Source: Magnetococcales bacterium (GTDB lineage: Bacteria > Pseudomonadota > Magnetococcia > Magnetococcales > DC0425bin3). From it: DNA of 45,625 bases. The notes under the pieces are model-generated. The model saw nothing but the letters and a program-made list of their open reading frames with translations, did no database searches and was not told the origin of the DNA. Shown piece by piece: positions 16,002 to 45,625 of this stretch. Each line of letters begins with the position of its first letter. The first letter of the stretch is position 1. Location of the stretch: contig JADGBZ010000019.1 of NCBI GenBank assembly GCA_015231175.1, positions 1 through 45,625 on the forward strand, in the 5' to 3' direction. Made by a program: the position numbers and the translations under genes.

Positions 16002-16170
16002 GTAACTATTCACCACCCTTGCAAAAAAAGCCTGGACAGGAAAGCCTTTGTCAGGGCTTCGCCCCGAACCCCGCCAGGGCTCTGCCCTGGACCCGCCAGG
16101 GCTCTGCCCTGGACCCACCAGGGAGCCAGCCCCCTGGACCCCGATTCGTGGCCGGGTGGTGAATAGTTAC
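16002..16170 (+). repeat. Interspersed element, copy B (full length, perfect inverted ends)
   Basis: The ends GTAACTATTCACCACCC (16002-16018) and GGGTGGTGAATAGTTAC (16154-16170) are a perfect 17-bp inverted repeat. The interior has two tandem copies of CCGCCAGGGCTCTGCCCTGGA-like sequence, then the core GGAGCCAGCCCCCTGGACCCCGATT. It lies exactly between the convergent YdjM and esterase genes and has no coding capacity. This is the best-preserved copy in the window and defines the family. Confidence 0.85.
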
Positions 16171-40290: not shown

Positions 40291-41305
40291 CCAGGTGATC
40301 GCGAATCAAAACTTCGGCAATCTGCACGGCATTCAGTGCGGCGCCCTTGCGCAGATTGTCCGATACCACCCACATCTGCAACCCGGAGGGAATGCTCTCA
40401 TCCTCCCGGATGCGGGAGACATAGGTCCAGTCCGTACCCGACGCCTCCAGGGGCGTGGTGAAACCGGCATGTTCGGGATCATCCACCACCTTCACCCCGG
40501 GGGCGCGGCTCAGAATCCCCCGCACCTCGGCAACAGTCAGCTTTTTCCCGGTCTCCACATTCACCGCTTCGGAGTGACTGTTGAACACAGGCACCCGAAC
40601 GCAGGTCGCCGTCAGGCGAATATCAGGATCGAGTATCTTGCGTGTTTCATTGACCATTTTCATCTCTTCCTTGGTGTAGCCATTCGCAAGGAACTGATCA
40701 ATCTGGGGAACTAAGTTGCAGGCAATCTGTTTGGCCATCTTTTTCGGGGAAACGGCAGGACCGAGACCATAATGGGCCTTGTTCTGGCCATCCAGTTCAT
40801 CGATGGCCGCCTTGCCGGCGCCAGACACGGCCTGGTAGGTCACCACCACCACCCGCTTGATGGTGGCAGCATCGTGAATCGGCTTCAGGGCCACCACCAT
40901 CTGGATGGTTGAGCAGTTGGGATTGGAGATGATGTTTTTCTTGCGATATTGGGCAATGGCCTGGGGATTGACTTCGGGCACCACCAGAGGCACATCCGGA
41001 TCCATGCGGAAAAAAGAGGTGTTGTCGATCACCACACAACCCGCAGCGCTCGCCTTGGGAGCGAACTCCTTGGAAACCGAAGCCCCCGGGGAAAACAAGC
41101 CAATCTCCGCTTGGTGAAAATCAAAGGTTGCCAAATCCTGTACAGGCAGTTCCTCCCCCCGAAAAGGCAGACTTAGGCCCAACGAACGGCTGGAAGCCAA
41201 CAAATGCACCTGATTCACCGGAAAATTCCGCTGCTCCAGAATTCGGATCATTTCCCGTCCGACATTTCCCGTGGCGCCAACCACGGCAACATTGTATTTC
41301 CGCAT
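40286..41305 (-). CDS. asd: Aspartate-semialdehyde dehydrogenase
   Basis: Encodes 339 residues from the ATG at 41305, with GAGGAAT upstream. It reduces aspartyl phosphate to aspartate semialdehyde, the branch point to lysine, threonine and methionine. The NADP site is VAVVGATGNVGREMIRIL. The active-site Cys is in IISNPNCSTIQMVVAL, and the catalytic His region is LTATCVRVPVFNSHSEAVNV. The gene lies downstream of leuB, separated by an interspersed element, so leuCDB-asd may be partly cotranscribed. Confidence 0.97.
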   Translation of the reverse strand: MRKYNVAVVGATGNVGREMIRILEQRNFPVNQVHLLASSRSLGLSLPFRGEELPVQDLATFDFHQAEIGLFSPGASVSKEFAPKASAAGCVVIDNTSFFRMDPDVPLVVPEVNPQAIAQYRKKNIISNPNCSTIQMVVALKPIHDAATIKRVVVVTYQAVSGAGKAAIDELDGQNKAHYGLGPAVSPKKMAKQIACNLVPQIDQFLANGYTKEEMKMVNETRKILDPDIRLTATCVRVPVFNSHSEAVNVETGKKLTVAEVRGILSRAPGVKVVDDPEHAGFTTPLEASGTDWTYVSRIREDESIPSGLQMWVVSDNLRKGAALNAVQIAEVLIRDHLA

Positions 41306-41346
41306 GGGTCTATTCCTCAAAGGTCTGATATGATAAATTTTTATTA

Positions 41347-41454
41347 GGGCTTTGCCCCGATTCCACCAGAAATCTGTCCTGGACTTTCCTGGAAGCCAGC
41401 CCCCTGAACCCCGGTTTGTTGGATTTCTGTGCGCCGGGTGCCGGACAGTTGCGG
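41347..41454 (+). repeat. Interspersed element, copy E
   Basis: GGGCTTTGCCCC (41347-41358) is followed by CTGTCCTGGACTTTCCTGGA, the core GAAGCCAGCCCCCTGAACCCCGG and a degraded right end, CGCCGGGTGCCGGACAGTTGC. It is in the same orientation as copy B and lacks a recognisable left terminal repeat. It lies between the asd start and the leuB stop, inside a presumed same-strand gene run. Confidence 0.65.
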
Positions 41455-41459
41455 TGTTT

Positions 41460-42539
41460 CTATCCAACCATGGCGGCAACCACGGCAGCACCCATCTCCC
41501 GGGTGCCAACTTGTTGCCTGCCGGTCTGCATGATATCCGGCGTCCGTAGCCCCTGATCCAGAACCTGATGGACAGCCCTTTCGATGCGCTCCGCCGCCGC
41601 AGGCAGCTCCAACGAATGCCGAAACATCATGGCTACGGAAAGAATCGTCGCCAACGGGTTGGCCACACCTTTGCCGGCAATATCAGGCGCGGAACCATGG
41701 ATCGGCTCATAAAGCGCGTACCGGTCTCCCAACGAAGCCGAAGGGAGCATGCCAATGGAACCGGTCAACATGCTGGCCTCGTCGGAAAGAATATCACCGA
41801 ACATGTTGGTGGTCAGGATCACGTCGAACTGGCGCGGATTGCGGATCAACTGCATGGCGGCATTGTCCACATACATGTGGCTGAGTTCCACATCCGGAAA
41901 CTCGGCGTTGCGTATGTCGGTCACCACCTGACGCCACAACTCCGTGGACTCCAAAACATTGGCCTTGTCAACCGAGCAGACCCGGTTCTGGCGTCGTTGT
42001 GCCGCCTTGAAAGCGGAACGGGCGACACGCTGGATTTCATCGGTGGTGTAGACCAGGGTGTTGAAACCACGTTTCCGCCCATCCGCAAGGGTTTCCACCC
42101 CGCGCGGTTCCCCGAAATAAATACCCGAGGAGAGCTCCCGCACCACCATGATGTCGATCCCACTGACCACCTCTGGCTTCAGGGAGGAGGCATCGGCCAA
42201 CTGGGGAAACACCTTGGCAGGTCGCAAATTGCAGTACAGGTCCAACCGCTTGCGAATGCCCAGCAAGCCCCGTTCCGGACGCACGCTGTAATCCAGGGAT
42301 TCCCACTTCGGCCCCCCCACAGCGCCCAGCAGGACGGCTTCCGCCTCCTTGGCCTGCTCCACGGTCCTCCCCGGCAACGGGGAGCCGGTGATATCGTAGG
42401 CGCTGCCGCCAATCAACCCCTCCGTGAGGCGAATCGGCAACTTGTCGTGGGCGATGACCCACTCCAGCACCTTGCGCGCCTCGGCCACGATCTCCAACCC
42501 GATGCCGTCGCCAGGCAACAGCAGAATGGTCTTGTCCAT
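41460..42539 (-). CDS. leuB: 3-isopropylmalate dehydrogenase
   Basis: Encodes 359 residues, the standard LeuB length. It oxidises and decarboxylates 3-isopropylmalate with NAD+ to the leucine precursor. Signatures are [20 protein letters not shown] at the N-terminus, [11 protein letters not shown], the substrate Arg region ([20 protein letters not shown]) and the metal-binding end [20 protein letters not shown]. The C-terminus has [20 protein letters not shown]. It follows leuD by 17 nt. Confidence 0.98.
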
Positions 42540-42556
42540 ATCTCGTCTCTCTCCAA

Positions 42557-43198
42557 CTATGGGGCCATAGCCCAGGGTTCCGCCTGCCGTCGCCGGGCCT
42601 CGAAAGCCTCGATGGCCGGAAGGTGCTCCAGGGTCAGACCAATATCATCCAGCCCCTTGAGGAGGCAATGACGGCGGAAGGAATCAACAGTAAAAGGGTG
42701 CTCGGTCCCATCGGGAGCCGTCAAAATTTGCCGTTCCAGATCAACCGTGATCTCGGCGCCGGGACGCGCCAGCACAGCAACAAAAAGGGCATCGACGATC
42801 CGGGCCTCCAGCACCAGAGGAAGAATGCCGTTCTTGAAGCAGTTGTTGAAAAAAATGTCGGCATAACTCGGCGCCACAATGCACCGGAAACCATAATCCA
42901 GCAAAGCCCAGGGGGCATGTTCACGGCTGGAGCCGCAGCCAAAATTATCCCGCGCCAAAAGAATCTTCGCCCCCTGATACCGGGGTTGGTTGAGAATAAA
43001 TTCGGAATTGAGAGGTCGCCCGGCATTCGGCTTGCCCGGCTCGCCACGATCCAGATAGCGCCACTCGTCAAACAGGTTGGGACCGAAACCGGTACGCTCG
43101 ATCGATTTTAAAAATTGTTTGGGAATGATGGCATCGGTATCGACATTGGCCCGATCCAGAGGGGCTGCCAGTGCTGTCAAGCGGACAAAGGGTTCCAT
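42557..43198 (-). CDS. leuD: 3-isopropylmalate dehydratase, small subunit
   Basis: Encodes 213 residues from the ATG at 43198 ([20 protein letters not shown]). The longer frame to 43306 runs into the repeat array and is not real. The swivel domain shows [18 protein letters not shown], the conserved [16 protein letters not shown] and the substrate region. LeuD and LeuC together isomerise 2- to 3-isopropylmalate. Unusually, leuC is 420 nt upstream, with a hairpin array between. Confidence 0.97.
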
Positions 43199-43261
43199 GA
43201 TCGTCATCCTGGTTGTGTGAAAAAAAACTGCACCTTGCGGGGGGGTGCCTCGGATACCGCA

Positions 43262-43581
43262 GTTTATCGCCCCGGCCCCCATACGGGGCGTTGCCCCGAG
43301 CCCCATGGCGGGGTTTTACCGGGTTGCGCCTCGAACACCGTGCGGGGCGTTGCCCCGGACCCCATGCGGGGCGTTGCCCCGAGCCCCATGGCGGGGTTTT
43401 ACCGGGTTGCGCCTCGAACACCGTGCGGGGCGTTGCCCCGAGCCCCATGGCGGGGTTTTGCTGGGTTTCGTCTCGAACACCGTGCGGGGCGTTGCCCCGG
43501 ACCCCATGCGGGGCGTTGCCCCGGACCCCATGCGGGGCGTTGCCCCGGACCCCACCAGAGAGGAAGGGCGCAGCCCTTCCT
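43262..43581. repeat. Hairpin-rich tandem array between leuC and leuD
   Basis: Seven exact copies of GGGGCGTTGCCCC (a GGGGC/GCCCC hairpin with GTT loop) start at 43285, 43344, 43368, 43427, 43486, 43510 and 43534. The steps are 59, 24, 59, 59, 24 and 24 nt. The 24-nt unit adds GGACCCCATGC-like sequence; the 59-nt unit adds a CCCCATGGCGGGGTTTT element and a GGGTTGCGCCTCGAACACC spacer. A further perfect 9-bp hairpin, AGGAAGGGC and GCCCTTCCT, closes it at 43561-43581. Because 59 is not a multiple of three, the copies fall in different frames and the array is not a coding repeat. Confidence 0.9.
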
Positions 43582-43618
43582 CCTGGACCTCCATCCCAGT
43601 CTTTCAAACGTTTTTTTA

Positions 43619-45034
43619 TTACGCTTTTTTCGCCCAGGTACGCACATCGACAAAATGCCCGGCGATGGCACTGGCCGCCGCCATGGCCGGACTGACCAGA
43701 TGCGTCCGCCCATCCTTCCCCTGCCGGCCCTCAAAGTTTCGATTGGAGGTGGCAGCACACCGCTCACCCGGGGCCAGGACATCGTCGTTCATGGCCAGAC
43801 ACATGGAACACCCCGGCGCCCGCCACGAAAAACCCGCCTCGGTAAAGATACGATCCAGCCCTTCCGCCTCGGCCTGCTGCTTGACCAACCCCGAACCGGG
43901 AACGACCATGGCCAAACGGACACTCGCCGCCACCTTGCCCCCCCGCACCACAGCAGCCGCCTCACGCAAATCTTCGATGCGACCGTTGGTGCAGGAGCCG
44001 ATGAACACCTTGTCCACGGCGATCTCGGTCATCGGCGTTCCTGGTCGCAACCCCATATAAGCCAGCGCCCGCTCCATACCCCCGCGCCGGGTCGGATCCT
44101 TCTCCTGGGCTGGATCGGGAACCCGCCCATGGATCGGCACCACCATCTCGGGGGATGTGCCCCAACTCACCTGAGGTGGGATATCCGCTGCGGCAAAGGT
44201 CATCTCACGATCAAACCGGGCGCCCGGATCCGAGTGCAGTTGCCGCCAGAATGCCACGGCCTGTTCCCACTGCGCCCCCCTGGGGGCAAACGGCCTGCCA
44301 TGCACATAGGCGATGGTTTTATCGTCTACCGCCACCATGCCGGCCCGCGCCCCGGCCTCGATGGCCATGTTGCAGACAGTCATGCGCCCTTCCATGGAGA
44401 GATCCCGCACGGCGGAACCGGCAAATTCAATCACGTAACCCGTCCCCCCTGCCGTGCCGATCTGACTGATCAGGTAGAGGACCAGATCCTTGCCGGTACA
44501 CCCCTCCGGCAAGGCCCCTTCGACGGCGATGCGCATGGTCTGCGGCTTTTTTTGCAGGAGGGTCTGCGTCGCCAGGACATGTTCGACCTCCGAGGTGCCA
44601 ATGCCAAACGCCAGCGCACCAAAGGCCCCATGCGTGGCGGTGTGGGAGTCGCCACACACCACCGTAAAACCAGGCAAGGTCAACCCCTGCTCCGGCGCCA
44701 TGACATGCACCACCCCCTGACGCAAATCCCCCATGCCAAACAGGGTCACGCCAAATTCACGGCAATTTTTCTCCAGGGTCTCCACCTGAATGCGTGACAC
44801 CGGATCCACAATGCCCCTCTCCAGATTGTGGGTGGGCACATTGTGATCCGGCACGGCAAACGTGGCCTCGGGATGCCGCATGCGCCGGCCATGCATCCGC
44901 AACCCGGAAAAAGCCTGCGGACTGGTCACCTCATGCACCAGATGTCGGTCGATATACAAAAGCGCCGTCCCATCCTCCCCCGTGCGAATCACATGGGCTT
45001 GCCAAATCTTGTCAAAAAGCGTCTGCGGCGTCAT
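43619..45034 (-). CDS. leuC: 3-isopropylmalate dehydratase, large subunit
   Basis: Encodes 471 residues. The aconitase-type [4Fe-4S] cysteines are in [14 protein letters not shown] and in [10 protein letters not shown]. The N-terminus [12 protein letters not shown] and the block [20 protein letters not shown] are typical. AAGGAAG lies about 7 nt before the ATG. It is first in the leucine gene run; leuD follows only after the 420-nt repeat-filled gap, with leuB beyond. Confidence 0.98.
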
Positions 45035-45082
45035 GAAAAACTTCCTTCGGAGGTAGGTGCAAAATTTACGTGCAAACGTTCT

Positions 45083-45112
45083 ATACTAGTATGGTTTGAG
45101 GGTGGTTGACAA
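45083..45112 (-). promoter_or_regulatory. Candidate leuC promoter
   Basis: On the minus strand TTGTCA (complement of 45107-45112) and TAGTAT (complement of 45083-45088) are separated by 18 bp. Start of transcription would be near 45076, about 42 nt before leuC. This leader is too short for a classical leucine attenuator. Confidence 0.5.
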
Positions 45113-45378
45113 GGGGGATTGTCAGCATCAGGAGCGCACATCGACCCAAAAAAACATCGGCGTGCGCCTGCAACCATCCATAAAATGGGTGGATCCCCCT
45201 CGCGATTGCAACTTCCCAACCCCGGAGCGTCTAAATCACATATTTTGTTTCGGAATAAAAATTTTTGGGAAGAACCAGGTCAGCACATTCCATCGCTCAT
45301 ATCAAGGATGCAGGCAAAAATTATGGTGTTTTATGGGTTTTTTAAAGAAATGCTTCTGTTGTGAGGCTATTATGTTGA

Positions 45379-45606
45379 AAATACATAGATGGACGCCAGG
45401 AAGGCATCCAGATCGGTGAACAAAAAGGCGAGGCCACGACTCTGCTTCGCACCCTCCGCCGCCGTTTTCCCGACCTGCCCACCTGGGTTGAGTCCAGGGT
45501 TCTTGCCGCCAATCTGGAGACCCTGGATACGTGGATAGACAGGGCCATTGACGCACGCTCGATCCATGACATCTTTGGTGACGAGACAACCGGCGGAACG
45601 ACTTGA
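45379..45606 (+). pseudogene. C-terminal relic of an Rpn/PD-(D/E)XK-family transposase-like nuclease
   Basis: After an in-frame TGA at 45376-45378 the frame reads KYIDGRQEGIQIGEQKGEAT, then TLLRTLRRRFPDLPTWVESR and LETLDTWIDRAIDARSIHDI, up to TGA at 45604-45606. This is the typical end of Rpn-family/DUF4351 proteins: a GRQEG repeat linker, then RRFG.LP.W...R...A....L..W.DR...A. No start or nuclease domain is present upstream. It is most simply a fragment left of a larger gene. Confidence 0.6.
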
Positions 45607-45625
45607 ACGCAACAGTTGCGCAAGC

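Follow-up and report, generated by a model that had tools for sequence, protein, structure and literature searches.

The seven hairpins that lie between leuC and leuD very probably represent a locally multiplied copy from a dispersed family of non-coding palindromic repeats whose 83-nt core has two G+C-rich hairpins; this copy would have come to lie right after leuC, expanded by slippage or unequal exchange and remained near-neutral. The window, meaning the whole stretch of 45,625 nt analysed here, comes from a Magnetococcales bacterium; its relevant features are collected in Table 1.

Architecture of the array

We recovered seven exact copies of GGGGCGTTGCCCC on the + strand (43285-43546) at the positions claimed in the initial annotation, with steps of 59, 24, 59, 59, 24 and 24 nt between successive cores. 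Although all seven cores are identical, the repeat units are not, since alignment resolved two kinds with small differences among them, one of 24 nt, GGGGCGTTGCCCCGGACCCCATGC, the other of 59 nt with 35 extra bases. Tandem Repeats Finder reported an 83-nt period (59+24) with a 95% match. The steps had also been said to break the reading frame, which holds for 59 nt but not for 24 nt, a multiple of three, and the region is intergenic anyway. As claimed, the array separates leuC from leuD, with both open reading frames (ORFs) intact on either side. At its leuC-side end, an 83-nt element copy adjoins the leuC stop codon and matches the family query with 95% identity (E 1.2e-31).

Table 1. Coordinates of features in and around the leuC-leuD insert (positions in the window).
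Feature	Coordinates	Strand	Remarks
Degenerate member of the 147-bp MITE family, between leuB and asd	41340..41440	+	match by eye; absent from G002
leuD, intact, 213 aa	42557..43198	-	Pfam Aconitase_C, E 4.4e-38
leuC-leuD intergenic insert, 420 nt	43199..43618	none	67% G+C (window 56%); gap in the two relatives of the genus: 21 and 24 nt
Imperfect hairpin then U8, just upstream of leuD	43225..43265	-	-11.5 kcal/mol, z -0.5; weak, terminator-like
59-nt unit 1	43285..43343	+	core 43285-43297 plus 35-nt extension
24-nt unit	43344..43367	+	core 43344-43356
59-nt unit 2	43368..43426	+	core 43368-43380; identical to unit 1
59-nt unit 3	43427..43485	+	core 43427-43439; extension diverged
24-nt unit	43486..43509	+	core 43486-43498
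24-nt unit	43510..43533	+	core 43510-43522
Dispersed 83-nt two-hairpin element copy	43534..43617	+	seventh core 43534-43546, then CCAGAGAGGAAGGGCGCAGCCCTTCCTCCTGG, T7 end
leuC, intact, 471 aa	43619..45034	-	Pfam Aconitase, E 1.3e-180

Copy numbers were taken from a draft assembly of 175 contigs, and many element copies sit at contig ends (e.g. L301), so assemblers evidently stumble on such repeats. It is nevertheless extremely improbable that the array itself, or its copy number, is an assembly artefact: individual units are told apart by variants (several positions differ in unit 4), the flanks are unique, and the contig runs on for about 2 kb beyond the array. Moreover, short-read assemblers usually collapse repeats rather than expand them.

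The locus in related genomes

The 420-nt gap compares with only 21 nt (G002) and 24 nt (G001) in two relatives of the same genus; the insert is therefore specific to this lineage. Alignment to the G002 contig showed that the order leuC-leuD-leuB-asd is kept without the insert. Both genes were located in 27 relatives, with a gap of 6-55 nt in 17, 147 nt in one and 706-1033 nt in nine, so that the expectation that leuC and leuD normally abut describes most relatives but not these nine (L058, L059, L061, L069, L072, L074, L076, L078 and L079). In the wide-gap relatives read, a further ORF lies between the two genes; its product starts like M-D/S-L-E-L-ACPFAQR and, judged by eye only, is possibly a glutathione S-transferase-like protein.

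A dispersed 83-nt element with recurrent tandem expansion

The GGGGCGTTGCCCC core has 25 exact copies in the genome against one for the reversed control pattern, and its exact clustering is far beyond chance. At other sites, the core belongs to an 83-nt element laid out as GGGGC(K)TTGCCCC, RAACCCCA, a 14-bp stem CCAGGAGGAAGGGC/GCCCTTCCTCCTGG and then ACCTCCATCCCAGTCTTTCAATNGTTTTTTT. We found at least 56 copies of this element in the genome, the window copy (43534-43617) being among the best matches, and those inspected lie mostly between genes, as far as crude gene calls can tell. Dozens of copies occur in the sister species G002 and diverged ones in G001, while farther relatives have mainly the first hairpin in common. 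A special tie of the array to the leucine operon is thus not borne out, since the same hairpin stands at many unrelated loci and the relatives are without the insert.

The 62 distinct copies were too alike for covariation to be informative, giving only three compensatory A-T to G-C cases. A search of 41000-45625 against Rfam covariance models returned nothing at E <= 1, and we identified no mobilising enzyme for the 83-nt element.

Tandem arrays on such elements recur at many other loci of this genome with periods of 18 to 154 nt (for example, 18 nt x5.9, 23 nt x4.0, 24 nt x3.2, 53 nt x3.0 and 111 nt x3.8). Hairpin pairs spaced by 24 nt are also common in other Magnetococcales and in Acetobacteraceae genomes, and were not found in the viral contigs scanned. 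Among the matches listed, 85 runs of 24-nt-spaced cores were examined, 83 with two cores and two with three; the leuC-leuD array is therefore unusual in copy number, not in kind. Its seven copies exceed any other array examined (most have two to four, one has 5.9). A second hairpin array, GGGGTGTTGCCCCTTGTT x5.9, adjoins an 83-nt element at a contig end (L030, end of contig C64, locus positions 1407-1513).

These observations favour the earlier suggestion of an expanding repeat, with amplification acting on DNA: the array belongs to an element family spread over the whole genome and has grown in tandem. The initial annotation had named identical arrays at random sites as contrary evidence, and these exist in part, namely as the hairpin and shorter arrays at other loci.

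Relation to REP elements and MITEs

REP/BIME elements and REPINs are short G+C-rich palindromes, mostly extragenic, present many times per genome and sometimes in tandem clusters (PMC3733652, PMC3116915), and one end of the REP palindrome bears a GTAG or CGTC tag (PMC3733652, PMC8266576). The family at leuC-leuD resembles them in being short, G+C-rich, clustered and of high copy number, mostly extragenic by the same crude gene calls, and one RAYT is present in the genome. A classical REP/BIME or REPIN mobilised by a RAYT transposase is, however, a most unlikely reading of the array. The 83-nt consensus contains neither tag and none adjoins GGGGCGTTGCCCC, and all seven copies stand head-to-tail instead of being paired inversely, an arrangement that is rare in REPs (PMC3733652). 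Furthermore, the palindrome bordering the single Y1_Tnp match of the genome, the only RAYT found, is another one, GGGAGCGCGGGCGTCCCGCCCGC. This RAYT (NCBIfam REP_Tyr_transpos; contig C36:28775-28999, locus L081) lies in frame inside a long ORF that matches models of DUF1156/anti-phage-associated methylases, and the bordering palindrome is itself read in frame. The leuC-leuD element is a dispersed palindromic repeat in the broad sense, with local tandem expansion, REP-like or MITE-like and not a classical REP.

The 83-nt element has part of its left half in common with a 147-bp element bounded by 17-bp inverted repeats, GTAACTATTCACCACCC. With up to two mismatches allowed, the 15-nt end motif of the 147-bp element was counted 451 times across the genome (control, 2), and 16 copies of its family have perfect 8-bp target duplications. 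The ends of a resident IS66-family element measure 19 bp (GTAGTCGTTCAGAGACCCC / GGGGTCTCTGAACGGTTAC) and are accompanied by an 8-bp duplication that is nearly perfect; because these features are similar, the 147-bp element is likely an IS66-type MITE. Its length forms of 125 and 169 bp differ from 147 bp by exactly one 22-nt hairpin module. The window holds an intact MITE at 16002-16170, with perfect 17-bp terminal inverted repeats and GGATTTTC as its 8-bp target duplication; a further 22-nt hairpin module brings it to 169 instead of 147 bp. An older 148-bp copy of the family, at 257-404, has an 8-bp target duplication with one mismatch.

Unlike its 147-bp relative, the leuC-leuD copy has an indistinct left boundary without recognisable terminal inverted repeats or an 8-bp target duplication, and a search for both at the 83-nt copies gave one weak case only. 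We therefore dropped the reading of the leuC-leuD element as a MITE bounded by terminal inverted repeats.

Folding and possible effects on the operon

The initial annotation had proposed that the array might stabilise the leuC message or impede transcription. As a regulatory device, its transcribed hairpins would keep 3' exonucleases off the leuC message, or would slow transcription or end part of it, and so set the leuC:leuD ratio. Such roles have been hypothesised for REP elements, which may stabilise mRNA or affect termination (PMC3733652). The element copy does fold well as a single strand, with -37.4 kcal/mol and z -4.1 on the + strand and z -2.3 on the - strand, and the imperfect hairpin with U8 that precedes leuD could cause some termination on the operon strand, its fold not being unusual. 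On the other hand, shuffled versions of the whole insert fold just as stably as its operon-strand RNA (z -0.01), and an intrinsic terminator scan called none in the array on either strand. The opposite-strand terminators suggested earlier do correspond to CCCCATGGCGGGGTTTT, present three times on the + strand with a T4 tail, but the stem has only four G-C pairs plus two weak pairs and was likewise passed over by the scan, so that the suggestion is weak.

Because LeuC and LeuD are parts of a single enzyme, there is no obvious gain in a strong imbalance between them. Considering also that both same-genus relatives lack the insert and that the element occupies many unrelated loci, we regard a regulatory device as unlikely. 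The putative message-stabilising or transcription-impeding roles are not needed to explain the array.

Origin of the array and implications

We propose that a member of the 83-nt family was placed directly after leuC in this lineage and that the small hairpin module of the element then multiplied in tandem, giving the 24-nt steps, while uptake of a 35-nt stretch into the module would account for the 59-nt steps. Foldable single-stranded DNA probably allowed the multiplication, through replication slippage or unequal exchange. Its intergenic position, with the leuD start region left in place, may explain why the array has been tolerated. We consider it near-neutral, closer to genomic litter than to a device built for regulation, and a putative regulatory effect on leuD expression is possible.

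Since its seven copies exceed every other array examined, the array may bring a benefit specific to this site. In a scenario that we judge very unlikely, the dispersed palindromic element would have been recruited and expanded inside the operon, and the multiplied hairpin module would serve as a regulatory tract of variable copy number, adjusting leuD against leuC.

An eye-catching array is thus explained as the expansion of a dispersed repeat, which warns against reading regulation into it. Our literature search found no account of the exact motif, nor of REP elements or MITEs in Magnetococcales, and no description of the abundant population of palindromes and MITEs that this Magnetococcales-like genome harbours. 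The hairpin modules of this population vary in copy number, which makes them of use in studies of repeat biology and in the assessment of assembly breaks.
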